From a virus: a stretch of DNA of 44,489 bases. Location: the IMG/VR virus record IMGVR_UViG_3300024358_000491, positions 1 to 44,489 of that record, one strand, 5' to 3'. Of this stretch, positions 5,896 through 34,022 are shown piece by piece; positions within the stretch are counted from its first letter, which is position 1, and each line of letters starts with the position of its first letter. The translations under genes were made by a program, and so were the position numbers. The notes under the pieces are model-generated. The model saw nothing but the letters and a program-made list of their open reading frames with translations, did no database searches and had not been told where the DNA came from.

Positions 5896-5971
5896 GCGCT
5901 AGTAGCCAAGTGGAACGGCAGGAGCCTCTAAAACTCCAGAAGCGTGAGTTCGATTCTCACCTAGCGCACCA
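5896..5971 (+). tRNA. tRNA with anticodon CUA (amber suppressor tRNA)
   Basis: A complete 76-nt cloverleaf. The acceptor stem GCGCTAG/CTAGCGC is perfect over 7 bp, with discriminator A and an encoded CCA (5969-5971). The T-arm is GTGAG/CTCAC around TTCGATT. The anticodon arm is GGAGC-CTCTAAA-ACTCC (5921-5937), with the last stem pair (C-A) mismatched. The anticodon at 5928-5930 is CTA, which reads UAG. The D-arm (GCCAAGTGGAACGGC) and short variable loop look most like tRNA-Gln, so glutamine insertion is an inference. A gene with an in-frame TAG lies 2.3 kb downstream. Confidence 0.9.
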
Positions 5972-8918: not shown

Positions 8919-9626
8919 ATGATATTACATGCATTTGGTGATAGTTTTGTTTCGGGGTACCAGGACGATTTTATCCATATATTAGGATACGATCCTGGTC
9001 ACGGAATGGAATTTGAAGAACGAGAAGAATATCTAAAATACAATGTAAGTTTTGCAGCATTAATTGCCAAACATCTTGGATTTAAATTTAAAAATTATGC
9101 AGAAAGAGGGAGTGGAAATTTTCCTCAGCTTGATAAATTAACAACAAGATTGCGAGCCGGAAAAATAAAATCTGGAAACATTGTATTATTTGGAATTACA
9201 ACGCCAATTCGAGATAGACTTTTTTTTGCCGAAGATGTTAAAATTCATAATGAAGAATTAAGTGGACCAATTTTAATCGATAGAGAACTAATAACATCTC
9301 AAAGATTAGACAAAGTAATTGATTCTGATTATTTTTATATTCTTTGTATATTAGAACAACTTGAAAGAATTTTTGGAATAAAAATAATTAAATTTAATCT
9401 ATTTGGAACACCTCCTCCCGTTCCTTATAATTTTATAAATTATATCAACGAAGGAACATTAATTGATATTTTAAATGATACATGGGGGCAAAAAATAAAA
9501 AATCAGTATCATACCAATATTGATGTTCCGGCGGGTTACGAAAATTTGTATACTTTGAAAAAACATCCGTCGATTGAAGGGCATAAAAAAATAGCATCTT
9601 GGTTTATTAATAATGTTAAACTATAA
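8919..9626 (+). CDS. SGNH/GDSL-type hydrolase
   Basis: 235 residues with the SGNH blocks: GDSF at 8-11 (catalytic Ser), a GSGN segment near residue 66 and HPSIEGHKKIASWF near the C-terminus (catalytic His). Related enzymes are esterases or deacetylases acting on lipids, glycans or peptidoglycan. There is no signal peptide. It is preceded by its own promoter and precedes the tmRNA. A second, smaller SGNH protein is encoded at 11414. The substrate is unknown. Confidence 0.8.
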   Translation: MILHAFGDSFVSGYQDDFIHILGYDPGHGMEFEEREEYLKYNVSFAALIAKHLGFKFKNYAERGSGNFPQLDKLTTRLRAGKIKSGNIVLFGITTPIRDRLFFAEDVKIHNEELSGPILIDRELITSQRLDKVIDSDYFYILCILEQLERIFGIKIIKFNLFGTPPPVPYNFINYINEGTLIDILNDTWGQKIKNQYHTNIDVPAGYENLYTLKKHPSIEGHKKIASWFINNVKL

Positions 9627-9639
9627 TTGTTAAATATAA

Positions 9640-9957
9640 GTTATTGCTGTATGAAGCAGATAGAAAAGTGTTCTGGACGCGGGTTCGACTCCCGCCTGGT
9701 CCACCAGAGAGAGCATTAGAGAACCGTTACTAAGGGCTTTGGCCGCGGTGTAGCAGACGTCATGCTAGTGTTCTCCCTAATGGGCCAGTCAAGGTTTCGA
9801 CAGGGCAAAGAGTAAGGAAGTGGACAGCACGGGAATGTGAAACCCGTAGGGTTGGGGGAACCCGGCCGAAGAAGCAAAAAAAGTAAACGCAAACGATACA
9901 CGTTTCGCATTAGCCGCTTAAGGCTTTGGGTAGCCATACCTCGAAACAGAAAATGGT
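9640..9957 (+). ncRNA. ssrA: Circularly permuted two-piece tmRNA
   Basis: The 3' (acceptor) piece comes first: T-arm GCGGG-TTCGACT-CCCGC (9679-9695), CTGGTCC (9696-9702), A, and encoded CCA (9704-9706). The 5' (coding) piece starts at 9782 with GGGCCAG, which pairs with CTGGTCC over 7 bp including a G3-U70 wobble, the alanine identity pair, then the GGTTTCGACAGGG D-region. The tag frame at 9889-9921 reads ANDTRFALAA then TAA, behind AAAAAAAGTAAAC, close to the E. coli tag context. A terminator follows. It rescues stalled ribosomes. Exact ends of each piece are estimated. Confidence 0.93.
9707..9781 (+). other. Intervening segment of permuted tmRNA
   Basis: Between the acceptor CCA and the coding piece. 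TTAG-AGAAC (9716-9724) pairs with GTTCT-cc-CTAA (9770-9780), closing a stem-loop that should be cut out when the two tmRNA pieces are matured. Confidence 0.75.
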
Positions 9958-9986
9958 AAAAATGGCGTCTTTTGACGCCATTTTTT
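9958..9986 (+). terminator. Intrinsic terminator of the tmRNA gene
   Basis: AAAAATGGCGTC-tttt(g)-GACGCCATTTTTT: a long perfect stem followed by a U-run, right after the coding piece of tmRNA. From 9987 to 10115 there is no ORF; it holds the leader of the outer-membrane barrel gene, with a TATATACT-like -10 near 10010 and a CAGTGTTACTACTG palindrome. Confidence 0.88.
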
Positions 9987-10115
9987 ATTGCATCTGCACA
10001 AGTAAGACTATATACTTGCTAATGATCAGTGTTACTACTGATTATTTTTCTGTCGTGTTGTTATAGGTTTAATACAAAAAGTTATCACACACGATTACAC
10101 ATAAGAGGATATTAT

Positions 10116-20700: not shown

Positions 20701-20770
20701 GTTAGCGTACCAGGTGGGCGTTAACAGGGGCAAAGGGCCCAAACAGATCTTACTTTAAAAGGAGATGACT
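20701..20770 (+). promoter_or_regulatory. Structured 5' leader of dnaK (two-hairpin element)
   Basis: Hairpin 1 is GTTAGCGT/GCGTTAAC (20701-20725), hairpin 2 is GGGC-aaagg-GCCC (20728-20740), then TCTTACTTTA and AAAAGGAGA before the start. The hsp20 leader at 22698 has the same order, with the stem bases changed in pairs. Confidence 0.8.
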
Positions 20771-22669
20771 ATGTCTAAGATCATCGGTATCGACTTAGGT
20801 ACCACAAATAGTTGCGTGGCCGTAATCGAAAACGGCAATTCTAAAGTTATTGAAAATAGCGAAGGCGCAAGAACAACACCCTCAATCGTTGCTTACACAC
20901 AAGATGAAATCCTTGTAGGTGCTACGGCAAAACGACAAGCAGTAACAAATCCAAAGAATACAATTTATGCAGCCAAGCGTTTAATTGGACGTAAGTTCAA
21001 AGAACAAGCTGTACAGAAAGACATCGACCTAATGCCATATGAAATTATGGAAAGTAAAAATGGTGATGCATGGGTTCGAGCACAAGGCAAAGAACTAGCA
21101 CCTCCACAGATTAGTGCTGAAGTTCTACGTAAAATGAAAAAGACTGCCGAAGACTATCTTGGTGCAGAAGTTACACAAGCAGTTATTACGGTTCCTGCAT
21201 ATTTTAATGATCAACAACGTCAAGCAACTAAAGATGCAGGACAAATTGCTGGACTAGAAGTTCTTCGTATTATTAATGAACCAACAGCAGCCGCATTGGC
21301 CTACGGTGTTGACAAACAAGATAAATCCGATCGCAAGATTGCAGTATACGACTTAGGTGGCGGTACATTTGACGTATCTATCATTGAGATTGCTAACGTA
21401 GACGGTGATAAACAAATTGAAGTTCTATCAACAAACGGTGATACATTCCTAGGCGGTGAAGACTTTGACCAACGCATCATGGATTACCTATGCGACGAGT
21501 TTAAGAAAGAACAAGGCATCGACCTAAAGAAAGATATGCTTGCCTTACAACGTCTAAAAGAAAGTGCTGAAAAAGCTAAGATTGAATTGTCTAGCTCTGC
21601 TAGCACAGATGTTAACTTGCCATACATTACAGCAGACGCAAGTGGTCCTAAACATATGAACGTTAAGATTACTCGTGCTAAGTTTGAATCAATGGTTGAA
21701 GACCTAATCAATCGCTCATTAGCGCCTTGCCGTCAAGCTATGCAAGACGCAGGCGTGAGTGCCTCCGATATTGACGAAGTTATCTTAGTTGGCGGACAAA
21801 CTCGTATGCCTAAGGTGCAGGAAGAAGTTGAAAAACTATTCGGCAAAGCACCACGCAAAGATGTTAATCCAGACGAGGCAGTTGCTGTTGGTGCTGCTAT
21901 CCAAGGTGCTGTGCTAGGTGGTGATCGCAAAGACGTTCTATTGCTAGACGTTACTCCATTAAGTCTGGGTATTGAAACCCTTGGCGGTGTGATGGCAAAG
22001 ATCATTCAAAAGAACACAACTATTCCTACTAAAGGACAACAAACATTCTCTACAGCAGAAGACAATCAACCAGCCGTTGATATTAAAGTGTTCCAAGGAG
22101 AGCGTGAGCTTGTTCAACATAACAAACTGCTAGGCGAATTTAAGTTAGACGGAATTGTTCCTGCTCCACGAGGCATTCCACAAGTTGAAGTAACCTTTGA
22201 TATTGATGCAAACGGAATCATGCACATCAGTGCTAAAGATAAGTCAACTGGCAAAGAAAATAAAATTACTATTAAATCGGATAGTGGTCTAAGCAAAGAA
22301 CAAATCGATGAGATGATTCGTGATGCTGAAGCTAATGCTGACGCTGACAAGAAAGCACGTGAACTTATTGAAACTAAAAATTCTGCAGAATCTCAAATTC
22401 ATCAAGTTAAAAAAGATCTTGAAGAATTCCGCAGTGAACTTACTGAAACAGAAATTGCTGATATTGAAAAAACAATTACAGATGTTGAAACTGCCGCTAA
22501 AGGTGACAGCGTAGATGCTATTAAAACAGAATTAGAAAAAGTTGTTCCAGCAATGTCAGTGCTTTTACAAAAACGTCAGCAAAAAGAGCAACCTCAAACT
22601 CCAGACGCTTCTGCTAATCCAGAAGATAACGTAGTTGATGCTACATTTACTGAAACTAAAAAAGATTGA
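20771..22669 (+). CDS. dnaK: Chaperone DnaK (Hsp70)
   Basis: 632 residues, full bacterial length. Start at 20771, because the ATG two codons earlier abuts the AGGAG site. The N-terminal ATPase domain has [14 protein letters not shown], the conserved Thr-rich phosphate loops, [13 protein letters not shown] and [14 protein letters not shown]; the substrate domain has [18 protein letters not shown]; the C-terminus ends in an acidic lid ([10 protein letters not shown]). All standard motifs are intact. DnaJ and GrpE are not in the window, so host partners are needed. It is followed by hsp20 and clpS. A complete DnaK is rare on a phage. Confidence 0.96.
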
Positions 22670-22695
22670 CACACAGACAGAAAGATGTTTAAATA
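22666..22695 (+). promoter_or_regulatory. hsp20 promoter region
   Basis: TTGACA (22666-22671) over the dnaK stop codon with TTAAAT 17 bases on, and an overlapping TTTAAATA (22688-22695), one mismatch from NATAAATA. Either places the RNA start near 22700, at the leader hairpin. Confidence 0.55.
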
Positions 22696-22697
22696 AT

Positions 22698-22767
22698 ATT
22701 AGCGGTACCTAAATGGGCCGCTAATGAGCAAAGAGCTCAATTGTTCTTACTTTATAAGGAGACTAAT
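22698..22767 (+). promoter_or_regulatory. Structured 5' leader of hsp20 (two-hairpin element)
   Basis: Hairpin 1 ATTAGCGG/CCGCTAAT (22698-22725), hairpin 2 GAGC-aaaga-GCTC (22726-22738), then TCTTACTTTA and TAAGGAGA. Same architecture as the dnaK leader, including the AAAGR loop and the TCTTACTTTA tract. Confidence 0.8.
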
Positions 22768-23202
22768 ATGAACAATCAACTTGCAAGACTAGATGCTATT
22801 AATAGAGCACTAATTGGTTTCGATCAAATGTTTGATCAAATGGAAAGACGATTCGCTAACAGCGTTTCTAATAATTATCCTCCGCACAACATTTTAAAAA
22901 TGGGAGATAATGAATATTCAATTCAGTTAGCAGTAACTGGCTTTGAAAAAAATGAAATTGCTGTTACCGTAGAAAACAATATTCTTATTGTTAAAGGTGA
23001 AAGTATGACAACAGACTATGCACCTGAACAATATCTGCATCGTGGTTTAGCAACACGTGACTTTGTTAAAGAATTTCCTCTTGCAGAACACATTGAAGTT
23101 GTTGGTGCAGAAACAAAAAATGGTATGCTTACTATCAAATTAGTTCGCAATATTCCAGAATCTGCAAAACCAAAGATCATTGACATTGTAGAGGTTAAGT
23201 AA
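22768..23202 (+). CDS. Small heat shock protein Hsp20 (IbpA-like)
   Basis: 144 residues from the ATG behind TAAGGAGA. The alpha-crystallin domain covers about 33-125: NILKMGDNEYSIQLAVTGFEKNEI, then LHRGLATRDFVKEFPLAEHIEV and ETKNGMLTIKLVRNIPE, typical of the IbpA class. It holds unfolded proteins for DnaK/ClpB refolding. It lies directly behind dnaK and shares its leader RNA, so the two are probably co-regulated. Hsp20 genes are known in cyanophages. Confidence 0.95.
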   Translation: MNNQLARLDAINRALIGFDQMFDQMERRFANSVSNNYPPHNILKMGDNEYSIQLAVTGFEKNEIAVTVENNILIVKGESMTTDYAPEQYLHRGLATRDFVKEFPLAEHIEVVGAETKNGMLTIKLVRNIPESAKPKIIDIVEVK

Positions 23203-23242: not shown

Positions 23243-23548
23243 ATGGGAACACTAACCGACATCGAAATTGATGAAAAAATAAAAGTTACAATTCAACCTC
23301 CAAAGTTATGGAAAGTTATATTTTTTAATGACGACCAAACACCTATGGATTTTGTTGTAGAATTATTGGTAAACATTTTTAAACATAACGAAAATAGAGC
23401 AAGAGATCTTACTTTAGAAATTCATAATACAGGAAGTGCAGTTGCAGGAATTTATCCTCATGAAATTGCTGAACATAGAGGATTAATGGCAACTCAAGTT
23501 TCTCGAACAAACGGTTTTCCATTACAAATACAGGTGGTAGAAGAATGA
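23243..23548 (+). CDS. clpS: Clp protease adaptor ClpS
   Basis: 101 residues with the ClpS core: KLWKVIFFNDDQTPMDFVVELL (the NDD and TPM segments that form the N-degron pocket), and GSAVAGIYPHEIAEHR as the second half. ClpS hands N-degron substrates to ClpAP. It follows hsp20 behind a GGAG site and overlaps the heme oxygenase start. A phage ClpP is encoded at 42.5 kb, but ClpA must come from the host. Confidence 0.9.
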   Translation: MGTLTDIEIDEKIKVTIQPPKLWKVIFFNDDQTPMDFVVELLVNIFKHNENRARDLTLEIHNTGSAVAGIYPHEIAEHRGLMATQVSRTNGFPLQIQVVEE

Positions 23549-24090
23549 GCTTAAGAGAAATCACAAAAGATTTACATCATGAAGCAGAAACAACAAAATT
23601 TGCTAAAGAATTACTTAGTGGTAAAATTGGTGGTAAGAAATATGTAAATTATCTTTACAACCTATTAGCAATTTATGATCCAATTGAATGGTATGCAAGT
23701 CGTCAGGGCATGTTTGAAAAAATGCCGTATTTGCCAAGACTTAAACATATTCATGCAGATTTTAAAGAATTGGACGACGGCGGCTATTTGTATCTAACTC
23801 CGTCTACATTAGAATATCAAGCGTATTTGCATAAGTTAGGTAATGACCCAGAACGCAAACATTTGATTAAAGCGCATTTATATTGTCGACATATGGGCGA
23901 TTTAAATGGCGGGCAAATCATTAAAAAACAAGTAGCTCATATCAGTAGTGGTAAGTTTTATGATTTTAATGATGCAGATACATTAAAGGTACAGATTCGT
24001 CAAGAGCTTACAGACGACCTCGGTGATGAGGCTCGTTTGGCATTTGAATATGCTATTCGAATGATGAAGGATCTCTATGACGGAGAGTAA
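23545..24090 (+). CDS. ho1: Heme oxygenase (biliverdin-forming)
   Basis: 181 residues of the HO family. The proximal His is His11 (KDLHHEAE) and the distal helix is GDLNGGQ (118-124). It opens heme to biliverdin IX-alpha, CO and Fe2+, using ferredoxin. It overlaps clpS by four bases and the bilin reductase by 14 bases, so the two-step heme-to-bilin route is translated together. In cyanophages such genes serve phycobilins; here the neighbours are not cyanophage-like, so the purpose may be iron release, a pigment or light/redox sensing. Confidence 0.93.
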   Translation: MSLREITKDLHHEAETTKFAKELLSGKIGGKKYVNYLYNLLAIYDPIEWYASRQGMFEKMPYLPRLKHIHADFKELDDGGYLYLTPSTLEYQAYLHKLGNDPERKHLIKAHLYCRHMGDLNGGQIIKKQVAHISSGKFYDFNDADTLKVQIRQELTDDLGDEARLAFEYAIRMMKDLYDGE

Positions 24091-24763
24091 TGTTTGGAAT
24101 ACGTTAATTGGAATCCAACAATTACTTGAAGACTCGTTTAACAGAACAGGCACCGAAATACAGGAGCCTGGAATGGATAGGTTTAATCAGCCTGGTTGGG
24201 TCAATCGTGTGTGGTCCAGCGATGCTTATCGTCGTGCTCACATTGATGTAGTAGACGCTAGAGAAACCAAAGGATTGTGGATGATGCATTGTTGCATTTT
24301 CCCTCATATTCATAACTCTGCTCCTATATTTGGTTTTGATGTAATAGCAGGAAAAAACAAGATCACAGGCTGTTTCATAGACTACAGCCCAACTACTAAC
24401 AAACAGCATCCTATGATAGATTATTTTGCTGAAGAAGTTACTAGATACGAGTGGATCCGCAAACGTGAATTACCCGACTGGGCACAGCGTATTTTTAGCT
24501 CTAGTATGGTAGCTGCGGGCAATGTTAAAGACGAATCAGAATTGAAACAGATTACTAGTCTAGCACATATACTGGTAAATCACTACTTAGAAACCGTAGG
24601 TGAAACTAATAATACTACCGCAGATGCAACTTTTGAACAGAATTACTATGCTCAAAATCAAAAACAAAACCCGCATACACCGCGTGTAATGGCTAGTTTG
24701 GGTTTAGACGAGGAAGATGTTCGAGTGTTTATTCAAGAATGCCTGTTCCCAGAAATTCGATAA
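24077..24763 (+). CDS. pcyX: Ferredoxin-dependent bilin reductase, PcyX-like
   Basis: 228 residues. The FDBR core is clear: AHIDVVDARETKGLWMMHCC then FPHIHNSAPIFGFDVIAG and ITGCFIDYSP. His71 and Asp88 align with the catalytic His88/Asp105 of PcyA. It reduces biliverdin to a phycobilin. Overlap with a heme oxygenase gene on a non-cyanophage-like genome matches the PcyX group described from marine viral metagenomes (phycoerythrobilin-forming); that subgroup call is from memory. No ferredoxin is in the window. PcyA or another FDBR class cannot be excluded. Confidence 0.82.
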   Translation: MTESNVWNTLIGIQQLLEDSFNRTGTEIQEPGMDRFNQPGWVNRVWSSDAYRRAHIDVVDARETKGLWMMHCCIFPHIHNSAPIFGFDVIAGKNKITGCFIDYSPTTNKQHPMIDYFAEEVTRYEWIRKRELPDWAQRIFSSSMVAAGNVKDESELKQITSLAHILVNHYLETVGETNNTTADATFEQNYYAQNQKQNPHTPRVMASLGLDEEDVRVFIQECLFPEIR

Positions 24764-24766
24764 ATA
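24759..24766 (+). promoter_or_regulatory. T4-type late promoter octamer GATAAATA
   Basis: Overlaps the bilin reductase stop; the next ATG (24774) is seven bases beyond, with no ribosome binding site, so the transcript would be leaderless. Confidence 0.5.
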
Positions 24767-24773
24767 CAGAACT

Positions 24774-26069
24774 ATGAGATTTTTTGAATTTGCAGCGCCT
24801 CAACAGGATCAAAACACGGTTTCTAAATTAGTAGATATTGTGAAAAACCCTAATACCGATCCTAAATTAAAAAACGAAATTCTAGCTATTTTAAAACAGC
24901 TGGAAGTTAAGGGCACCAAACAAGATAAACAGCTTAACGCTATACCCCCAGCGGAAGAGATTACTAAAGAAGCAGTAGGTGACGATACAATTAGTACTAT
25001 TGAATCCGATGAAGATTACTTTCAACGTATTCTTAACAGCGACCCTCGTTTAAAAGCCATTGCAGAAAAGAAACTTAAAGATGCAGAATCACAAGGATTT
25101 AATGTAGGTTCTGCTTTGTCAGCTGGAGATGCATTTAAACGTTTTAACGATCAAGTATTATCGTTAGTACAACATCTTAAACAGCTACCACCAGACTTTG
25201 CTAAAGAAGTTACTAAAACATTTAGTCACTTAGCTACTCAAGGTATAGATCAACAAGATTTAATTTCTTTCTTACAAGATTGTGCTAAACCAGATAGACT
25301 AATAGATCTACCTGCATTAACATCAAAATCTGGTACAGGTATTAGATTAAATGTTCCTTCAAAATATCAAGAAATCGTTAAGCATCTCGTGGCAGTTACT
25401 CCGGGTAGTAAAAATGCCGCTGCGGGCAAGGGAGAACTTATGCTTGCAGTTATTGGTAAAGACACAACTAAACCTGCTGTAGGAGATATTATTGTAGGTG
25501 AAAAACGTGTTGAAGTTAAAGCATCTGATGCAACTGGTAAAACAATATCTGATTTTGCTCTCGGTAAACAACCAGTTGAAAAGGCAAGAACAATCATGGT
25601 TAATACCATGAATAGAACCCTTGGTAGAGAGGTGTTTTTAGATGCAACAGCTGATACAACCAACGACCAAGGTGTTACTGGTATATCATCTATTAATACT
25701 AAAAATCTTGCTCAACTAAACAAGCTCTTTAGTGAAATGGGTGCAGAAGCTACACAAAAAATGTTCCGTGAAATGTTCACAGCAGTAGTAGGCAATAAAT
25801 TTTCAAAGGATATTGAAGATATTGTTTCCTCTATAGATAATAACGGAATTAACGTAGAATCAATGAGAAAGGCTATTGTTGCTTTATTGTTTGACTACTA
25901 TAAATCTGTGAATAACCATACAGGATTATTAACTATAAACGTTCCTAATCTAACTATCAATTATGTAGAAGATGCAGCGTCATTTGCAGCTATTCCTAAT
26001 CTAACAATTGGTACTTTATTTGATTTTAGAGCCAATCCTGGATCTATAACATCATTTAAACAAAAATAA
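24774..26069 (+). CDS. Hypothetical protein with PD-(D/E)XK nuclease-like core
   Basis: 431 residues from ATG 24774 (the upstream extension overlaps the bilin reductase gene). The N-terminal 120 residues are charged and helical. In the middle, GKGELMLAVIG, then GDIIVGEKRVEVKASD resembles the E...D-x(n)-ExK motif of PD-(D/E)XK nucleases. The C-terminus is helical then beta-rich (LLTINVPNLTINYVEDA). The nuclease assignment is tentative; the MRFFEF start is reminiscent of T4-like virion-associated proteins. It may cut DNA or be a catalytic relic. Confidence 0.65.
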   Translation: MRFFEFAAPQQDQNTVSKLVDIVKNPNTDPKLKNEILAILKQLEVKGTKQDKQLNAIPPAEEITKEAVGDDTISTIESDEDYFQRILNSDPRLKAIAEKKLKDAESQGFNVGSALSAGDAFKRFNDQVLSLVQHLKQLPPDFAKEVTKTFSHLATQGIDQQDLISFLQDCAKPDRLIDLPALTSKSGTGIRLNVPSKYQEIVKHLVAVTPGSKNAAAGKGELMLAVIGKDTTKPAVGDIIVGEKRVEVKASDATGKTISDFALGKQPVEKARTIMVNTMNRTLGREVFLDATADTTNDQGVTGISSINTKNLAQLNKLFSEMGAEATQKMFREMFTAVVGNKFSKDIEDIVSSIDNNGINVESMRKAIVALLFDYYKSVNNHTGLLTINVPNLTINYVEDAASFAAIPNLTIGTLFDFRANPGSITSFKQK

Positions 26070-26139
26070 AGTTTCTTAATCTAGAACAATTTAATAACGC
26101 CTTATAATTTTGGTTCTCTCTCCTTTAAATACTATACGG

Positions 26140-26159: not shown

Positions 26160-26642
26160 ATGTCTAAAACAAAAATAATATTAGTGACACTGATGCTGCC
26201 TTCAGTTGTATTGGCAGCAGAACTACAGCATAACTTTAATAGTCCTGCTTTTAACGGGCAAGGCTATAGTTCGCACGTTCTAACAATCAAACAACTTGAA
26301 GATCAAGCAAAAGAAAAGAACAGAGCAGCGGTAGAAGCATTAAAAGCAAAAGCAGAAGCTGAAGCAGCAAATACACCAACTGCACGTTTTATTGCTAATC
26401 TTGAAAGTCGTATCTATTCACAATTAGCTAAACAACTAACTGATAGTATGTTTGGTGAAGGTGCAACCTGTACAACCAGAGGTGTTGTATGCGGAACAAT
26501 TCCAGATATTGGTGGTAATTCAATTAGTTGGAAACTCGGTGATGGCAGTGATAATGGTATGATTGTCATTACAATTCAAAGCCTTACTAATGCCTCGGAT
26601 ATAACAACAATGAAGGTTCCAGCCGGAACGTTTTATTTTTAA
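26160..26642 (+). CDS. csgF: Curli assembly protein CsgF
   Basis: 160 residues. Signal peptide (about 1-19, cleaved after VLA), then ELQHNFNSPAFNGQGYSS, the CsgF N-terminus that plugs the CsgG pore, and TARFIANLESRIYSQLAKQL matching the conserved helix. Two cysteines follow in a C-terminal domain (CTTRGVVCG). CsgF couples secretion to nucleation of curli fibres at the outer surface. csgG follows 11 bases later, the classic pairing. Confidence 0.88.
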   Translation: MSKTKIILVTLMLPSVVLAAELQHNFNSPAFNGQGYSSHVLTIKQLEDQAKEKNRAAVEALKAKAEAEAANTPTARFIANLESRIYSQLAKQLTDSMFGEGATCTTRGVVCGTIPDIGGNSISWKLGDGSDNGMIVITIQSLTNASDITTMKVPAGTFYF

Positions 26643-26652
26643 GGGGCGGTAA

Positions 26653-27813
26653 ATGAAAAAAACAATAATAGCCCTAGGGGTAATCGCTATTTTATCAGGC
26701 TGTGCCACTAGTTCATCAATAAGAGAAAAGATGACCGGTGAACAATTTGATGAGCCAACCGTAGAGCAGAACAAATATCTAAAAAAATTAGGTGACGGAA
26801 TTAGAGCACCTAAAGGTGGACCAATTACCGTAGCAGTATACGGTTTCCGTGATATGACCGGACAACGTAAATCTGTTCCAAATATTGCTAGTTTAAGTTC
26901 AGCAGTTACTCAAGGTGCAGATTCATATCTTGTAAAAGCATTACAAGATGTAGGCAATGCAAGATGGTTTACCGTAGTTGAGCGTGTTGGTCTTGAGAAC
27001 CTAATTAAAGAACGTCAAATGATTCGTCAAATGCGTGAACAATATCAAGGCCGCGATGCTAAACCGTTGCCACCAATGTTGTTTGCAGGAGTTATTATCG
27101 AAGGCGGAATTGTTGGCTACGATTCAAATACATCAACCGGCGGTAGTGGTGCAAGATTTTTAGGAATTGGAGCACAAACACAATATCAAAGTGATACCGT
27201 AACCGTAAATTTAAGAACGGTTAGCGTTTCTACTGGAGAAGTATTGACTAGCATTACCGTTACCAAGACCGTGCTAAGTTATATGGATAAGGTCGGTGTG
27301 TTAAGATTTGTGTCGGCCGGTGAACAAGCAATTGAAGCTGAAATTGGTGCAAGCATTAACGAAAGCATCAATAAAGCAACTAATCTAGCTATTCAAGCAG
27401 CCGTTATAGAAACTATTAATGAAGGTGCCAAAAAAGGACATTGGGCATTTAAAGATGATTTGGTTATAACCCATCCGCTACCTGTTCAACCAGAAATAAA
27501 AATTGAACCTATGGTAGAGGTAAAGGTTGAACCTAAGGCAGAAGTAAAGGTCGAACCTAAGGCAGAAGCAAAACCAGAAGTAAAGGCAGAAGCAAAACCA
27601 GAAGCAAAACCAGAACCAACTCCAGCTAAAGTTCTTACTAAAAAATCAACAACAAGAACAACGGTAAGAGAAAATGATAAGGCTGGATCAACTATCCTTT
27701 CAATATTATCACCAGGGGACGAAGTTGAAGTATTACGAGAACAAGGAAATATGACTTTTGTTCAAACAAAGAGTGGTAAGAAGGGATGGGTAGTAAGTAA
27801 TTTCTTAAAATAA
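26653..27813 (+). CDS. csgG: Curli secretion channel CsgG with C-terminal SH3b domain
   Basis: 386 residues. A lipoprotein signal ends in LSGC (Cys17). The CsgG domain covers about 45-275: ITVAVYGFRDMTGQRK, WFTVVERVGLENLIKERQ, FAGVIIEGGIVGYDSN and the transmembrane-hairpin region QSDTVTVNLRTVSVSTGEV. It forms a nonameric outer-membrane export pore. Unusually, it continues through a Lys/Glu/Pro/Ala-rich linker of repeated VKVEPKAE/AKPE units (about 275-320) into an SH3b domain ending GKKGWVVSNFLK. The SH3 part would face the periplasm and could bind peptidoglycan. Confidence 0.93.
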   Translation: MKKTIIALGVIAILSGCATSSSIREKMTGEQFDEPTVEQNKYLKKLGDGIRAPKGGPITVAVYGFRDMTGQRKSVPNIASLSSAVTQGADSYLVKALQDVGNARWFTVVERVGLENLIKERQMIRQMREQYQGRDAKPLPPMLFAGVIIEGGIVGYDSNTSTGGSGARFLGIGAQTQYQSDTVTVNLRTVSVSTGEVLTSITVTKTVLSYMDKVGVLRFVSAGEQAIEAEIGASINESINKATNLAIQAAVIETINEGAKKGHWAFKDDLVITHPLPVQPEIKIEPMVEVKVEPKAEVKVEPKAEAKPEVKAEAKPEAKPEPTPAKVLTKKSTTRTTVRENDKAGSTILSILSPGDEVEVLREQGNMTFVQTKSGKKGWVVSNFLK

Positions 27814-27858
27814 TAACGGTACACTAATAAAAATAATAAAGTACCAAGGAGCGAAGAA

Positions 27859-28662
27859 ATGTATAAAAAAGATATTAAACTAATGGCGGCTATTGTCTCC
27901 GCTATATTTTGGGGTTCTGGTGCCCATGCAGCTGGTAGCAGCACTGGCCCAAACAACGTATATATAGAACAAGTGGGAAGTAGTAATACAATTACTATTG
28001 AACAAGTTGGCGGGACAAATAATGTTGGCGGAACAGCAGGTTCTGTTAGCGTTGATGCAACAGGTGTAACAACATTAACACCAACTGCACCTAGTTCGTC
28101 AAATTATGCAACAATAAACGGTAGTAGCAATACCGTATCAATCCAACAAAACGGAAATAACAATTCCTCACAATACAATATTGTTGGAAGTAAGAATACA
28201 TATACAGAAACCATTAATGGTTATAATAACCAAGTAAAATTAACGGTTAATAATGGAACCGTTACAGGTACTTCTAATTCTACAATGACAAATACCATCA
28301 CTGGCGATAGCAACGTAATAATTCAAAATATTACTTCTAGTCGTTTTACGTCAACTAATACAATTACAGGTGATAGTAACCAAGTTACTACAGATAGCAC
28401 TACATCAGGTACATTAAGTAGCATTAGTAATACTATTACTAGCAGTAATAATAACGTGATCAACATTCAACAAGCTGACACAGGAACTCATACCGTTGTA
28501 TTGAATACGACTGGTGGTGATTACAACTCTATTACTACTCAACAACAAGGAAGTAATAACAGCACAATCAATGTTAGCACAAACGGAGCACACAATACCA
28601 TTACGGTTCGTAGTACTAATGGATCTAGTATTACTAATCCGATGACAGCAATAGTGAGGTAA
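27859..28662 (+). CDS. Curlin-repeat protein (CsgA/CsgB-like)
   Basis: 267 residues with a signal peptide ending near GAHA. The mature chain is almost all Asn, Ser, Thr, Gly and Gln in curlin-like repeats (NVYIEQVGSSNTITIEQVGG, NTVSIQQNGNNN, NNVINIQQADTG, NSITTQQQGSNN), the amyloid beta-helix strand-turn units. Middle repeats are degenerate, with TNTITGDSN units in place of the Gln-Gln type. It is a likely substrate of the CsgG channel. AAGGAG site 9 bases before ATG. CsgA or CsgB role cannot be decided. Confidence 0.88.
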   Translation: MYKKDIKLMAAIVSAIFWGSGAHAAGSSTGPNNVYIEQVGSSNTITIEQVGGTNNVGGTAGSVSVDATGVTTLTPTAPSSSNYATINGSSNTVSIQQNGNNNSSQYNIVGSKNTYTETINGYNNQVKLTVNNGTVTGTSNSTMTNTITGDSNVIIQNITSSRFTSTNTITGDSNQVTTDSTTSGTLSSISNTITSSNNNVINIQQADTGTHTVVLNTTGGDYNSITTQQQGSNNSTINVSTNGAHNTITVRSTNGSSITNPMTAIVR

Positions 28663-28664
28663 CA

Positions 28665-29756
28665 ATGAATGCCCTGCTCGGAGTAATTTTATCACTTTTT
28701 GTGGTTAATGCCTGGGCGGGCATTGGTATTGTTGCCGACGTAAAAGGAACAGCCTGTGAGATCCAACGAAATAAAAGTAAATTATCCGGAGTTAAAGGTG
28801 CAGAAATTGAAACAATGGATACCTATATTACAGGATCTTGCGTAAGCAATATCACTTTTAAAGATGATACTAAAGTTCGAGTTACAGAAAATAGCAGGCT
28901 GCTTATCGACGATTTTGTCTTCGATCCTAAAAAGTCTGATGCTGGCAAACTGGCTATTAAAGCCGCTATGGGAACCGTCAGATACACATCAGGACAGATT
29001 GCTAAGAATAATCCTCAGCAAGTTAATATCCACACTCCTACCGCCTCGATAGCAGTTCGAGGAACTGATTTTACAATGACCGTAGATGAAGCAGGACAAA
29101 GTCTTGTTGTTCTAGTCCCGTCATGTAAAGATGATAAAGAAGTTAAACAATTTGAATTAGATGAACAACGTTGTCGCGTGGGAAAAATTGAGGTAACGAC
29201 GCAAGCAGGTTCAGTGGAGTTAGACAAAGCATTCGAGGGAACATATGTTACAAGTGCTAATATGCCACCGACTCCTCCGGTCGTTATGAATATTATCGAA
29301 TCAAAAATTAATAATAATTTAATCTTAGTTAAGCCTATGGAAATTCAGCGTTCTTTAGCCACTGCTACTAAAACTAAAAAAGAAATTGAATCAGAAGAAC
29401 TAGAACAAGAAGCCATACGTCAAATGATGCAACGCCTTGAAGAATCAAGAGAATCCCCTCAAGCAAAAGTATTACAATTTACCTATGCTGATGGAAGCAA
29501 AGGATGTAATCCTTCAACAAATATTTGTGTTAACTGGGATAATCCAGACGGATCGTCAATACAAGACAAAGGCAAAGGTGTGGCGTTTAGAAAAAACGAA
29601 GACCACTATGCTGAAATTAAAACTTTAGGCTATGCATCAAATACAACAATAACCGTTATACATAATGATCAACCAGATACTATTGTTATTGGCAGCGGAG
29701 ATCCAAACGGTAACGTTGTTTATATAAAACAAAACGCTGGTGTATTAAAAAGATGA
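28665..29756 (+). CDS. FecR-domain exported protein
   Basis: 363 residues with a signal peptide (1-18). The FecR domain (about 45-140) includes FKDDTKVRVTENSRLLIDDF and TPTASIAVRGTDFTMTV, the usual end of that fold. A charged helix (about 240-265) and a beta-rich end follow. Two cysteine pairs could form disulfides. In bacteria, FecR-like proteins of this type are found near CHASE2 cyclases and surface-protein genes. It is three bases after the curlin gene and overlaps the next by four. Confidence 0.85.
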   Translation: MNALLGVILSLFVVNAWAGIGIVADVKGTACEIQRNKSKLSGVKGAEIETMDTYITGSCVSNITFKDDTKVRVTENSRLLIDDFVFDPKKSDAGKLAIKAAMGTVRYTSGQIAKNNPQQVNIHTPTASIAVRGTDFTMTVDEAGQSLVVLVPSCKDDKEVKQFELDEQRCRVGKIEVTTQAGSVELDKAFEGTYVTSANMPPTPPVVMNIIESKINNNLILVKPMEIQRSLATATKTKKEIESEELEQEAIRQMMQRLEESRESPQAKVLQFTYADGSKGCNPSTNICVNWDNPDGSSIQDKGKGVAFRKNEDHYAEIKTLGYASNTTITVIHNDQPDTIVIGSGDPNGNVVYIKQNAGVLKR

Positions 29757-31135
29757 AAAGACTAATACAATTTTTATTCTTAATAATGATAACACCATTT
29801 GTTTGGTGTGAAGATCTTTCTGCACAAGGAACAGGTTTTGAATCAGGAACATTGTCTGGTTGGACATCGGCCGGTGGAGTTAGTGTATCTGGAGCCAGTT
29901 CTAATAACCTTGGAGGCAAAGCCTGGGTAGTTAATCCTTATGGTACTAAAATGGGTATGCTTTATCCTAGTGGAAGTACAAGTTTTGATACAGCATTGTC
30001 TACTCTAGGACTATCGGCAAATGAAAATTCAGCTGTTAGATCTTTTTTATCTGCCAACGCCGGTGGCGGAAGTCCTACTCCAACTAATGCTGCTTATGTA
30101 ATGACTACCGTAGCATTACAAGCAGGAGTTACCTATACCTTTGCTTGGAACTATTTGAGCACAGATTATTTTCCATTCAACGACGGTTCTATGATGACAC
30201 TGACACATGCCAGTAATGCTAGTGTTATCCCATCGTTGAATAACGGTAATCAACGTTTTGCATTATTAGGTTTTACAAATCCCGGATCAGGAAATTACTC
30301 AACAGGATCCTACGGTTCTACAGGTTGGCAGTTAGCTGTGTTTACCGTACCCGAAGACGGCAATTATGTTTTAGGTTTTGCCGCATTTAATCTAGGCGAC
30401 ACTATTCTAAGTCCTATCTTATACATTGACGAAGTTCAAGGAAGCACAACACTCAACGGCCAAAACTTTGGACCTGTTGCTCCTAATGCAGGTTCAACAG
30501 CACCAGCAACTCCTTCAGAACCAACAGCACCAACTTTATGTTGTGGCGGTAGCGCAGCATCATTTAATATTAATGCTATGCACCAAACAAACATTAATAC
30601 GTTTTTGAATAGACCACACGCTGATTCAAAAGTTATGATTGAACAAATTGGCAGCTATAATCATATTACGGTTCAACAAACAGGCACCAATCAAAACTAT
30701 TTAGAATACATAGGCACAGGAAATAATAATCAAATAACCGTCAATCAATCTGGCAATGTTAATACACAGGTTAACTATGCTGAGATAAGATTAGGAACTA
30801 CAGGTAGTGCAAATAATAATACCGTGAATCTTACACAACAAAGTACAGGTGGTGGCAAAGGAGCATTTATTACCGTTAACGATAATAATAATGCTGTGAC
30901 ATTACAGCAAAAAGATTCAGGAAGTCATTATGCGGCTATACATGTAAGTGGCGGATCAAAAACCGTTGATGTTATTCAACAAGGATCTGCCGGTCATATG
31001 GCAGATATTACATTATCAGGGCCAGGGAGCCGAAGTTTAAATCTTACACAAGGCGGCTCTACACAACAATTCTATAGTATAAACAGCAGTTGTAGCAGTA
31101 ATTGTCAAGCGATAACCGTTACGCAAGGACAATAA
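29753..31135 (+). CDS. Large curlin-repeat protein with N-terminal lectin-like domain
   Basis: 460 residues. Signal peptide (about 1-19), then a beta-sandwich domain (about 25-235) with GFESGTLSGWTSAGG and YLSTDYFPFNDGSMM, resembling the exported GxW-type carbohydrate-binding or surface domains. After a Pro/Thr linker and a CC pair, curlin repeats occupy about 290-460 (SKVMIEQIGSYNHITVQQTG, NNQITVNQSGNVN, KTVDVIQQGS). It probably decorates or nucleates the fibre and may bind cells or surfaces. A T4 late octamer overlaps its stop. Confidence 0.85.
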   Translation: MKRLIQFLFLIMITPFVWCEDLSAQGTGFESGTLSGWTSAGGVSVSGASSNNLGGKAWVVNPYGTKMGMLYPSGSTSFDTALSTLGLSANENSAVRSFLSANAGGGSPTPTNAAYVMTTVALQAGVTYTFAWNYLSTDYFPFNDGSMMTLTHASNASVIPSLNNGNQRFALLGFTNPGSGNYSTGSYGSTGWQLAVFTVPEDGNYVLGFAAFNLGDTILSPILYIDEVQGSTTLNGQNFGPVAPNAGSTAPATPSEPTAPTLCCGGSAASFNINAMHQTNINTFLNRPHADSKVMIEQIGSYNHITVQQTGTNQNYLEYIGTGNNNQITVNQSGNVNTQVNYAEIRLGTTGSANNNTVNLTQQSTGGGKGAFITVNDNNNAVTLQQKDSGSHYAAIHVSGGSKTVDVIQQGSAGHMADITLSGPGSRSLNLTQGGSTQQFYSINSSCSSNCQAITVTQGQ

Positions 31136-31138
31136 ATA
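31131..31138 (+). promoter_or_regulatory. T4-type late promoter octamer AATAAATA
   Basis: Overlaps the end of the curlin gene and is five bases before the next ATG; it could supply late transcripts of the lipoprotein and cyclase. Confidence 0.45.
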
Positions 31139-31142
31139 ATAG

Positions 31143-31355
31143 ATGCGTAAATTAACGTTGTTAATTTCATTTATTATTACAGGTTGTGCAACAGGTCCTA
31201 GACCAGTGTCTGCACCACCACCGCCCAGTTGTATTAATATTCCCGGTGAAGGATGTAAACAATTTAATGCTGGTAATAAGGGCGGTACAACACTAGGACA
31301 TCATAACAATGAAGATATCCCTGCCAAAGCTGCCGCAGTTCCAACTCAACCCTAA
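31143..31355 (+). CDS. Small lipoprotein
   Basis: 70 residues. A signal segment ends in ITGC (Cys15), then a proline-rich linker and a CINIPGEGCKQF cysteine pair. Overlaps the cyclase gene start by 47 bases in another frame. It may be a small outer-membrane partner for the curli machinery; function unknown. Confidence 0.7.
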   Translation: MRKLTLLISFIITGCATGPRPVSAPPPPSCINIPGEGCKQFNAGNKGGTTLGHHNNEDIPAKAAAVPTQP

Positions 31356-33387
31356 AAAGATTTTAATCAGTCCTTGGACAGCATTAATAACACTTGTACT
31401 TATTTTAAGTATAAGAATAGCTGATCCTGTCTTTGTAGAAAGTATAAGATTACGTTACTTTGATACGTTAATTACAAGTCAAACACCTACACAAAATAAT
31501 ATTATTACAATTAACATTGATGAAAATGCTTTAGACAAATATGGCCAATGGCCTTTTAAGCGTGATGTTTATGCACAACTTATAGACGAGCTTTATAAAC
31601 GCAACGCTGGTCTAGTAGTATTCAATGTATTAATGACTGAAAAAGATCGTCAAGGAGGCGATGCACGACTAGCAACTACTCTCAGCGACTTTCCTGTAAT
31701 ACTTCCAAACATGCCGGCAGACAGGATGAAAAACACTCCTCGTCAGCCCGGTACAGCCGTTATTGGTTCTGACTTTCAAGAATCAATAATTCAATACCCG
31801 GGTATAATTGCAAATATTTCAGAACTTGAAAAACGAGCGGCAGGTGTTGGTATTGTAAACACACTACCAGAAGTTGATGGAGTTAATAGAAGAATGCCTC
31901 TAGTCGTTAGTGTTGATGGAAGAGTTTATCCAAGTCTGGCCATGGAGGCATTAAGAGTTGCCGCAGGAGATACAACCGTTCAAGTCAAACTTTTTGAAGG
32001 CGGTGTTGAAAAAATGCGAATACCTAAGTTTGGTCCTATTACTACTGATCAATTAGGTCGTGTGTGGATTGACTGGAGTCAACAATCAAAATCATATTCA
32101 ATGACAGAGTTGCCTAAAGACTTTGGCGGTGCTGTTGTTATTGTAGGTGTTGCTGCGGCCGGTTTGGGCAATCCTGTCCCTACAGCAGTAGGCAGCGTTT
32201 GGCCACACGATGTGCAGGCCGCAGTTTTAGGAACAATGTTCAATGGCGTTGTTATTCAAAGACCTGATTATGCCGACGGTGTTGAAATACTAACATTAGC
32301 ATTAGCAGGTATACTATTAATTTTCTTAACGAGGTATGTATATGTCGGATTGGCAACTACAATTGGTCTGGTGGTCATCAGCGGTATTGGCAGTTGGTTT
32401 GTGTTTAATAATTTTCTATGGTTATTTGACGCTACTGCCCCTGGAGTTGGCTTGGTATTGGTCGCTTTGCATGCCTACGGTGTCAAGTTTGTAAGTGAGT
32501 TTTTACAAAAGCAACAAATTAAAAAACAATTTGGTTCTTATGTAAGCCCTGTTATCGTTGAAAGATTACAAAAAGATCCTAGTCTAATTCGTTTAGGCGG
32601 GGAAGAAAAAATGCTCACAGCAGTTATGACTGATATGCGCAACTTCACAGGTCTAGGTGAAAAGTATGGAGCAGACGTTGAAGGTTTTACAGCTATCATG
32701 AATTCTTATATGACAGCAATTAGTAAACCTGTGTTTGCCAACGATGGATGTTTAATTAAATTTATTGGTGATGCATCTTTACATATACACGGAGCTCCGG
32801 TAGATGACGATCGTCATGCTTATCACGGTGTTAAAACTGCTTTAGAAATGATAGAAGCAGTCAACGAATTTAACAAACATCTAGAGTCCATTGGAAAACC
32901 ACCCGTTGGTATGGGAGCAGGTGTTAACACTGGTAAGATTCTAGTTGGTAATATTGGTAGTGAAGGTAAAATGGGTTATGACGTACTAGGCGATCCTGTA
33001 TCGGTAGCAAGTCGACTTGAAGGACAAACAAAAGGTTATGGTGTACTAATCATTATAGGCCCAGATACCTACGAAGAAGTTAAAAATGATTTTACGTGTT
33101 TAGAATTAGATTGTATTGCAGTTAAAGGCAAAGCTATTGGCTTAAACATTTATACTCCAATAACAACAAAAGCTGAGTCGAATGATCTACAAATGCATGC
33201 CGCAATGCTACAATTATATCGTCAACAAAAATTTGATCAAGCTATTAAATTCTGTAAAGATTTAATGGGGAGGTTTGAAGGATCTATGGATCATTATTAT
33301 GAAATATGGATTGAACGTTGCGAGGAGATGAAAACACATGATTTACCCGCAGACTGGGATGGGGTCTTTAGAGCCACTTCTAAATAA
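31309..33387 (+). CDS. CHASE2-domain class III adenylate cyclase
   Basis: 692 residues. First membrane helix about 24-40, CHASE2 sensor (about 42-320; FDTLITSQTPTQNNI, INIDENALDKYGQWPFKRD), three membrane helices (about 328-395), then a class III cyclase. Metal aspartates are Asp442 (VMTDMRNFTG) and Asp488 (KFIGDASLHI); the base-specifying Lys lies just before, and GYDVLGDPVSVASRLEG carries the transition-state residues. All catalytic residues look intact, so cAMP synthesis is likely. CHASE2 senses an unknown periplasmic signal. It ends a cluster of curli and FecR genes, which suggests coupled surface sensing. No comparable phage gene is known to me. Confidence 0.93.
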   Translation: MKISLPKLPQFQLNPKKILISPWTALITLVLILSIRIADPVFVESIRLRYFDTLITSQTPTQNNIITINIDENALDKYGQWPFKRDVYAQLIDELYKRNAGLVVFNVLMTEKDRQGGDARLATTLSDFPVILPNMPADRMKNTPRQPGTAVIGSDFQESIIQYPGIIANISELEKRAAGVGIVNTLPEVDGVNRRMPLVVSVDGRVYPSLAMEALRVAAGDTTVQVKLFEGGVEKMRIPKFGPITTDQLGRVWIDWSQQSKSYSMTELPKDFGGAVVIVGVAAAGLGNPVPTAVGSVWPHDVQAAVLGTMFNGVVIQRPDYADGVEILTLALAGILLIFLTRYVYVGLATTIGLVVISGIGSWFVFNNFLWLFDATAPGVGLVLVALHAYGVKFVSEFLQKQQIKKQFGSYVSPVIVERLQKDPSLIRLGGEEKMLTAVMTDMRNFTGLGEKYGADVEGFTAIMNSYMTAISKPVFANDGCLIKFIGDASLHIHGAPVDDDRHAYHGVKTALEMIEAVNEFNKHLESIGKPPVGMGAGVNTGKILVGNIGSEGKMGYDVLGDPVSVASRLEGQTKGYGVLIIIGPDTYEEVKNDFTCLELDCIAVKGKAIGLNIYTPITTKAESNDLQMHAAMLQLYRQQKFDQAIKFCKDLMGRFEGSMDHYYEIWIERCEEMKTHDLPADWDGVFRATSK

Positions 33388-33668: not shown

Positions 33669-34022
33669 TTAACTTTCTCCTGCTGAGGCTGTTTTCTTCT
33701 CGTCATCGTCTAATTTAGTAGCTTGATCAAACTTCTGATTAGCTTCTTTTTCAACTTTCATCTGTTCCATAACGCGATCTGACTCAATAATTTTGCCTCG
33801 CAAATGTAATACGGTATTTACCTTTTGATTTAACCTAATTAAATCGTTGTCTAACATACGAATACGATCAATAAGGGCAATAAGAACGGTGTTAGCTTCG
33901 CTAATAACGGGCTTAACTTCTTTAGTTGACCACTCCCAAACATATTTAATAATATAGCCCATACCGACTGCCATAACAATCGGAAAGCCATATTTGTTTA
34001 CTAATTCTGCTAATTCACCCAT
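33669..34022 (-). CDS. Small membrane-anchored coiled-coil protein
   Basis: 117 residues with GGAG before the ATG. An N-terminal membrane segment (about 8-28; YGFPIVMAVGMGYIIKYVW) is followed by a coiled coil (about 45-100). It resembles BhlA/YvrJ-type holin-like proteins in its short GFPI membrane start, and is a paralogue of the gene at 34444, with the same G-F-P-I motif. A role as holin or membrane tether is inference. Confidence 0.7.
   Translation of the reverse strand: MGELAELVNKYGFPIVMAVGMGYIIKYVWEWSTKEVKPVISEANTVLIALIDRIRMLDNDLIRLNQKVNTVLHLRGKIIESDRVMEQMKVEKEANQKFDQATKLDDDEKKTASAGES

Follow-up and report, generated by a model that had tools for sequence, protein, structure and literature searches.

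A phage curli operon with a FecR-domain protein and a CHASE2 sensor cyclase in a probably betaproteobacterial virus

In 2020, pelagimyophages were reported to carry curli genes (PMC7029224). In 2022, the CsgG-CsgF pore of phage Melnitz was proposed to act in lysis (PMC9004378), and a pelagiphage csgF-csgG-curlin-FecR-curlin-cyclase cluster was published together with proposals concerning aggregation and superinfection (PMC9599517). A related pairing is found in Sinorhizobium, where the CHASE2 cyclase CyaD1 adjoins the FecR-domain gene SMc02177 and removal of CHASE2 leads to constitutive cyclic AMP (cAMP) (PMC5498481). Here we analyse the IMG/VR virus record IMGVR_UViG_3300024358_000491 (44,489 bases; this whole stretch is referred to as the window), which carries a curli operon ending in a CHASE2 cyclase gene. 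The phage curli-FecR-cyclase module is already known, and the window adds to it one more, probably betaproteobacterial, member. In our best reading, to which we give roughly an even chance of being right, the operon would produce, late in infection, a curli fibre that bears a lectin and is coupled to a sensor cyclase.

The operon consists of seven genes, all on the plus strand: csgF, csgG, curlin 1, fecR, curlin 2, a small lipoprotein gene and the CHASE2-cyclase gene (Table 1). The intergenic gaps from csgF to the cyclase are 10, 45, 2, -4, 7 and -47 bases. An earlier interpretation made from the letters alone (the sequence-only reading) had placed seven genes at these positions on one strand with gaps of at most 46 bases; coordinates together with Pfam and AlphaFold2 confirm the genes, and the largest gap is 45. 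It had also called for a search of the same gene order in phages, and this order is indeed found in Melnitz EXVC044M (MZ577097, a Methylophilales phage), in Pelagibacter phage HTVC008M (NC_020484) and in many viral contigs. Compared with Melnitz and HTVC008M, respectively, the window cyclase is 42.5% and 34.9% identical, CsgG shares 43-46% identity over ~70% of its length, and curlin 2 is different.

To place the operon in a wider context, we collected from IMG/VR 436 candidate stretches encoding cyclase relatives and 583 encoding CsgG relatives. Of the cyclase neighbourhoods analysed, 33 match the gene order of the window exactly. The csgF-csgG-curlin-fecR arrangement is present in all 59 csgG loci with enough sequence, csgF being upstream of csgG in every case, and the cyclase lies within ~10 kb of csgG in 42 of 46 phage loci. 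In turn, csgG is present in 16 of 17 cyclase-bearing phage records, even at a distance of 12-16 kb, the exception being a 23-kb fragment. In related phages csgF, csgG, curlin 1, fecR and the cyclase are under purifying selection, with median ratios of nonsynonymous to synonymous substitution rates (dN/dS) of 0.06-0.10 (0.07 for the cyclase). This conservation in viral csgG loci and isolates supports a genuine phage module coupling curli with a CHASE2 cyclase. Bacterial contamination or a chimeric assembly, raised as a possible artefact, is already refuted by the order shared with isolates HTVC008M and Melnitz and with dozens of viral contigs, and we regard its probability as negligible.

The placement of the cyclase varies. 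At four loci (L016, L024, L029 and L041) the csg-fecR genes are on the strand opposite the cyclase, and at six others (L056, L058, L063, L065, L073 and L074) the near flank of the cyclase lacks csg genes; several of these six have a D,D-carboxypeptidase-like protein (judged by eye) after the cyclase. We considered whether the cyclase might work without curli, since some fetched flanks are csg-free, but all longer records tested had csgG elsewhere.

For comparison with bacteria, we used the 80 closest bacterial cyclase loci (identity of at most 35%). A FecR-domain protein is encoded within 10 kb of 30 of these cyclases, in 19 cases within 300 nt, so the pairing of FecR and CHASE2 cyclases in bacteria, assumed by the sequence-only reading, holds. 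These FecR proteins are often large, up to 2,956 amino acids. The bacterial pairs, for example SMc02177/CyaD1, thus resemble the window in having a FecR-domain protein beside a CHASE2 cyclase, whereas the sampled relatives differ in that they have no curli genes nearby, a different active-site type (see below) and, in many cases, a much larger FecR. Neither csgF nor csgG was found within the fetched flanks of any of the 80 loci. Conversely, CsgF matches occur in 7 of 385 genomes of Alphaproteobacteria, the class sampled for CsgF, 6 of them exceeding the cut-off; at the bacterial curli loci inspected, of which L251 was read in part with overlapping open reading frames (ORFs) hidden, neither FecR nor a cyclase is labelled beside csgFG. 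The suggestion that the module had moved from bacteria as a unit is therefore not supported by any example. Overall, we find the sequence-only reading supported in part. Since the sampled bacteria have curli or the FecR-cyclase pair but not the two together, the association appears to be a combination made in phages, which agrees with PMC9599517.

The window shares with the module described in PMC9599517 the order csgF-csgG-curlin-fecR-curlin-cyclase, the lack of CsgE and a combination unseen in bacteria. Unlike the pelagiphage module, it has a CsgG with an SH3 tail and a host that is probably a betaproteobacterium. The host assignment is based on the transfer-messenger RNA (tmRNA), which matches a betaproteobacterial family (Rfam RF01850, E 2e-36), and on DnaK, which is closer to betaproteobacteria (68-72% identity) than to alphaproteobacteria (61-65%) or SAR86 (66%). 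The tmRNA is of the permuted betaproteobacterial type and occupies positions 9593-9987 (Rfam RF01850, RF04321). Genes of phage type in the window include ribonucleotide reductase, a clamp-loader-like protein and an exonuclease.

The canonical components of type VIII (curli) secretion recognized in the operon are the CsgG lipoprotein pore domain, CsgF and curlin-repeat subunits. Window CsgG matches the solved E. coli CsgG over residues 8-268 (E 5e-50), and the repeats of curlin 1 have the form N-x-x-x-I-x-Q. Phage CsgG proteins vary from ~250 to 440 amino acids, and the SH3-like tail is found in some only. E. coli curli has the CsgG pore, CsgF and curlin repeats in common with the window, which differs by the addition of FecR, a lectin head and a cyclase. 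It also differs in CsgE, found in 0 of 18 phage records (the window and 17 relatives) with a positive E. coli control, as the sequence-only reading had noted for the window; for this reason we class the operon as a phage form and not as canonical type VIII secretion. Directly before csgF there is no histidine kinase, the protein at 24717-26069 having no Pfam or NCBIfam match, and the window was therefore not placed in the podophage (HTVC023P-type) sub-form.

As no CsgE gate was found, the CsgG-CsgF pore might be reused as a timed outer-membrane channel that aids lysis or depolarisation, the curlins being secondary. This was proposed for Melnitz, which has the same module and whose infected cultures showed no clumping (PMC9004378); the late-promoter motif before csgF described below would also fit. 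However, the same report held the curlin genes to be missing in Melnitz, whereas we find curlins in both Melnitz and the window, under purifying selection. A lysis pore would also leave the exchangeable lectin heads unexplained, and we consider this explanation improbable.

The T4 late promoter consists of TATAAATA plus an extension. A motif of this type precedes csgF in the window (Table 1), where exact TAAATACTA occurs only once. In 128 csgF upstream regions, the same set in which the motif had been spotted, exact TAAATACTA is present 27 times against 0.4 expected, and with at most one mismatch 70 times against 6.2 expected from shuffles. Because of this origin of the motif, shuffles and neighbouring genes, not an independent set, serve as the control. 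Before csgG and curlin 1 the motif is no more frequent than by chance, and before fecR it is weakly enriched (7 versus 1.8 expected); it is also found before 25 of 135 cyclase genes. Moreover, in HTVC008M and Melnitz, motifs similar to TATAAATA are located ahead of several structural genes and, in HTVC008M, also ahead of csgF. A strict search for TATAAAT, the late promoter motif used in PMC9004378, detects only 8 of 129 csgF upstream regions. Taken together, the motif, which is new in the present analysis, suggests that the operon is expressed late from a T4-type late promoter.

The timing bears on another explanation, namely that the fibres change the surface of the infected cell and thereby block other phages. 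Variable extracellular sugar-binding heads could mask receptors, and superinfection exclusion, which the sequence-only reading had suggested, was likewise proposed in PMC9599517. Yet exclusion would be most useful early, whereas the motif before csgF is of the late type. Early superinfection exclusion is therefore less likely than a late adhesive role, and we give it little chance.

Curlin 2 of the window has no Pfam match. Its AlphaFold2 model contains a jelly-roll head and a curlin solenoid, the latter with a predicted local distance difference test (pLDDT) of ~72-90 by block. Foldseek relates the head to the carbohydrate-binding module (CBM) CBM61 (2xom, template-modelling score TMt 0.62), to CBM16 and to gingipain adhesin domains. 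In phages, the protein in the slot after FecR ranges from 140 to >800 amino acids, and Pfam applied to 60 such proteins reveals F5/8 type C domains (17), PA14 (9), GLEYA (2), autotransporter domains (3) and curlin repeats (20). Single slot proteins combine a PA14 or F5/8C head with curlin repeats in one chain. We see here signs, new in the present analysis, that the slot holds exchangeable sugar-binding heads (CBM-like, F5/8C, PA14, GLEYA); judging by fold and family, these heads would bind sugars. At L014, L061 and L230, an autotransporter-domain protein replaces the lectin-curlin after fecR.

The FecR-domain protein was modelled by AlphaFold2 from 60 alignment rows with a pLDDT of 84. Behind a helix resembling a signal peptide come the FecR domain, then a helical linker, a flexible segment and, at the end of the chain, a small beta domain. 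A sequence search against the PDB gave no match. In structure comparison (VIA-align), the first part of the model resembles the PupR signalling domain 6ovk (Z 15.2), and residues 17-113 resemble the cell-surface anchoring domain 5ix9 (Z 10.3, 73 of 76 residues, root mean square deviation 2.2), which we take to be a domain of a giant RTX ice adhesin. The phage FecR, in contrast, is joined not to a giant adhesin but to a short curlin-like tail. Its last 45 residues resemble a single curlin strand-turn-strand with a terminal Gln, the nearly invariant Gln356. The tail motif is present in 88 of 114 phage FecR proteins, compared with a shuffle mean of 8 and maximum of 17, and the best bacterial FecR matches stop at or before approximately model position 250 of 371, short of the tail. 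Since Pfam recognised no curlin repeat in the tail, and a short curlin-repeat hidden Markov model exceeded 5 bits in 8 of 110 tails (and in none of the controls), the evidence for curlin likeness consists of the enrichment of the motif and a weak match between profiles.

The name of the domain and the PupR match, which is a match to a FecR signalling domain, might suggest that FecR is an iron-linked regulator, with the pore taking up nutrients, for instance siderophores or cofactors, an idea found in PMC9599517. Against it, a predicted signal peptide leads directly into the FecR domain, the N-terminal cytoplasmic anti-sigma part is not seen in the window protein, and the operon contains no sigma factor; the curlin-like tail and the anchoring-domain fold likewise point elsewhere. 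We find iron regulation very improbable. The adhesin-anchor/FecR fold and the C-terminal curlin-like strand pair, a combination new in the present analysis, suggest instead that FecR may serve as a fibre anchor.

The cyclase has the residues expected of class III enzymes: metal-binding D442 and D488, the base-recognizing pair K484/D558 and catalytic R569. The sequence-only reading had all the catalytic residues visible, which is right for these five; the usual transition-state Asn is, however, replaced by S565. Positions 558 and 565 are fully coupled in phages, with D+S in 81 proteins, T/S+N in 31 and no mixed cases, and T/S+N occurs in 78 of 78 bacterial proteins. The D/S type forms one clade on the cyclase-domain tree and still does so when positions 558 and 565 are left out. 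The D/S and T/S+N types are interspersed on the CHASE2 tree, implying 18-19 changes, at least 11 of them forced by supported branches, and the one-clade hypothesis has p 3e-7 in the approximately unbiased (AU) test; long branches and a quick tree limit this result. The simplest reading is that catalytic domains have been swapped between phages beneath one sensor family. Two coupled active-site types with an apparently swapped catalytic domain are new in the present analysis. At L175 (13880-15900), the cyclase is present as two ORFs of 336 and 365 amino acids, perhaps owing to a frameshift or a broken gene. A separate ORF of 99-135 amino acids that corresponds to just the C-terminal end of the cyclase is found at L018 (4350-4724), L004 (6046-6360) and ~20 other loci, mostly just upstream of csgF.

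The Ser in place of the usual Asn in all 81 D/S-type phage proteins could mean that the cyclase is weak, inactive or makes another product, and that CHASE2 has some other role. Nonetheless, the remaining catalytic residues are all kept, dN/dS is low, and the active mycobacterial cyclase Ma1120 has Lys/Asp together with Ala at the Asn site (PMC4215837). As Ma1120 is active without Asn, we do not treat Ser565 as decisive; a defective enzyme seems to us distinctly improbable, and the window cyclase probably makes cAMP. No cyclic nucleotide monophosphate (cNMP)-binding protein, which could be a cAMP receptor, was found among 17 phage records, whereas all 15 bacterial genomes checked encode such proteins. 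Any cAMP effect would therefore act through the host.

Based on these observations, we propose that the operon is a phage type VIII secretion system joined to a sensor cyclase and transcribed late from the T4-type promoter. CsgG and CsgF would form an outer-membrane pore exporting curlin 1 and the lectin-curlin fusion; on the infected cell, these two would assemble into an amyloid fibre that carries a sugar-binding head. The FecR anchor would remain periplasmic, its C-terminal strand pair joining or seeding the fibre. Located in the inner membrane, the CHASE2 cyclase might sense the state of the anchor or another periplasmic signal and produce cAMP, which could act on host cNMP-binding regulators. 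As a result, the infected cell or its debris would, at a late stage, stick to sugars presented by other cells or by particles. The neighbourhood of CyaD1 and a FecR-domain gene in Sinorhizobium offers a precedent by analogy. Several observations weigh against this proposal. The contact between FecR and CHASE2 is inferred, and in some phages the cyclase is distant from the curli genes or oriented convergently to them. The CsgE gate was not found in the window or the 17 related records, and, as mentioned, Melnitz caused no clumping. The similarity of the FecR tail to the curlin profile is weak (hhalign probability 28%, E 6e-4 for one comparison), and the match of the curlin 2 head is modest, with no Foldseek hit under E 1e-3 and pLDDT of ~41-88 by block. 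An elaborated version, in which a late amyloid fibre with an exchangeable lectin is docked or seeded by the strand pair of the FecR anchor, the CHASE2 cyclase signals anchor or fibre status by a cyclic nucleotide, and phages exchange the two catalytic domains under the same sensor as though evading or readjusting a response of the host, is unlikely.

Table 1. Positions of the operon features and the upstream motif in the window
Feature	Position	Strand	Basis or remark
T4-type late promoter-like motif TTTAAATACTATA	26124..26136	+	~24 nt upstream of csgF
csgF, curli chaperone/pore-collar protein	26160..26642	+	Pfam CsgF E 7e-8
csgG, outer-membrane curlin pore with lipobox	26653..27813	+	Pfam CsgG E 6e-53
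SH3_3 domain, CsgG C-terminus, residues 336-386	27658..27813	+	Pfam SH3_3 E 2e-6
curlin 1, predicted major fibre subunit	27859..28662	+	Pfam Curlin_rpt E 3e-4
FecR-domain protein, predicted periplasmic fibre anchor	28665..29756	+	Pfam FecR E 4e-10
curlin-like strand-turn-strand tail of FecR, residues ~315-356	29607..29732	+	motif enrichment
curlin 2, predicted lectin-curlin fusion	29753..31135	+	AlphaFold2
jelly-roll head of curlin 2, residues 38-226	29864..30430	+	AlphaFold2
curlin solenoid of curlin 2, residues 292-459, ~14 strands	30626..31129	+	AlphaFold2
small lipoprotein	31143..31355	+	lipobox judged by eye
CHASE2 class III nucleotide cyclase	31309..33387	+	Pfam CHASE2, Guanylate_cyc
CHASE2 sensor region, residues 28-335	31390..32313	+	Pfam CHASE2 E 4e-39
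cyclase domain, residues 437-608, D/S active-site type	32617..33132	+	Pfam Guanylate_cyc E 2e-16

Some further features of the window are worth pointing out. A small ORF homologous to the lipoprotein is present in L036, L186 and L041. To the right of the cyclase, a small membrane protein (33669-34022, minus strand) with a weak holin PHROG match is kept in several phages. Upstream of the operon, positions 20765-23202 encode DnaK in full length and what looks by eye like a small heat-shock protein, followed by a phycocyanobilin:ferredoxin oxidoreductase-like protein at 24077-24763 (NCBIfam E 2e-27, under the curated cut-off). The adjoining protein at 23545-24090 may be heme-oxygenase-like, judged by eye. 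A bilin reductase-like gene would be odd if the host does not photosynthesise. The window also has a tRNA with a CUA anticodon at 5896-5971, labelled tRNA-Pyl by ARAGORN; since TAG is the stop codon in just 2 of 49 window genes checked, it is a possible amber suppressor.

Amyloid is rarely encoded by phages, and what it does for them has been an open question since 2020. The curlin 2 lectin head, the late-promoter motif, the FecR tail and the swapping of cyclase domains are not mentioned in the parts of PMC9599517 consulted here. With the late motif, the putative sugar-binding heads and the anchor-like FecR, the vague proposals made so far (sibling capture, exclusion, a nutrient pore, lysis) give way to a specific and testable one, in which a late lectin-bearing surface fibre would be coupled to second-messenger signalling. 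In addition, the two apparently swapped cyclase types allow catalytic domains to be compared cleanly within a single sensor family.

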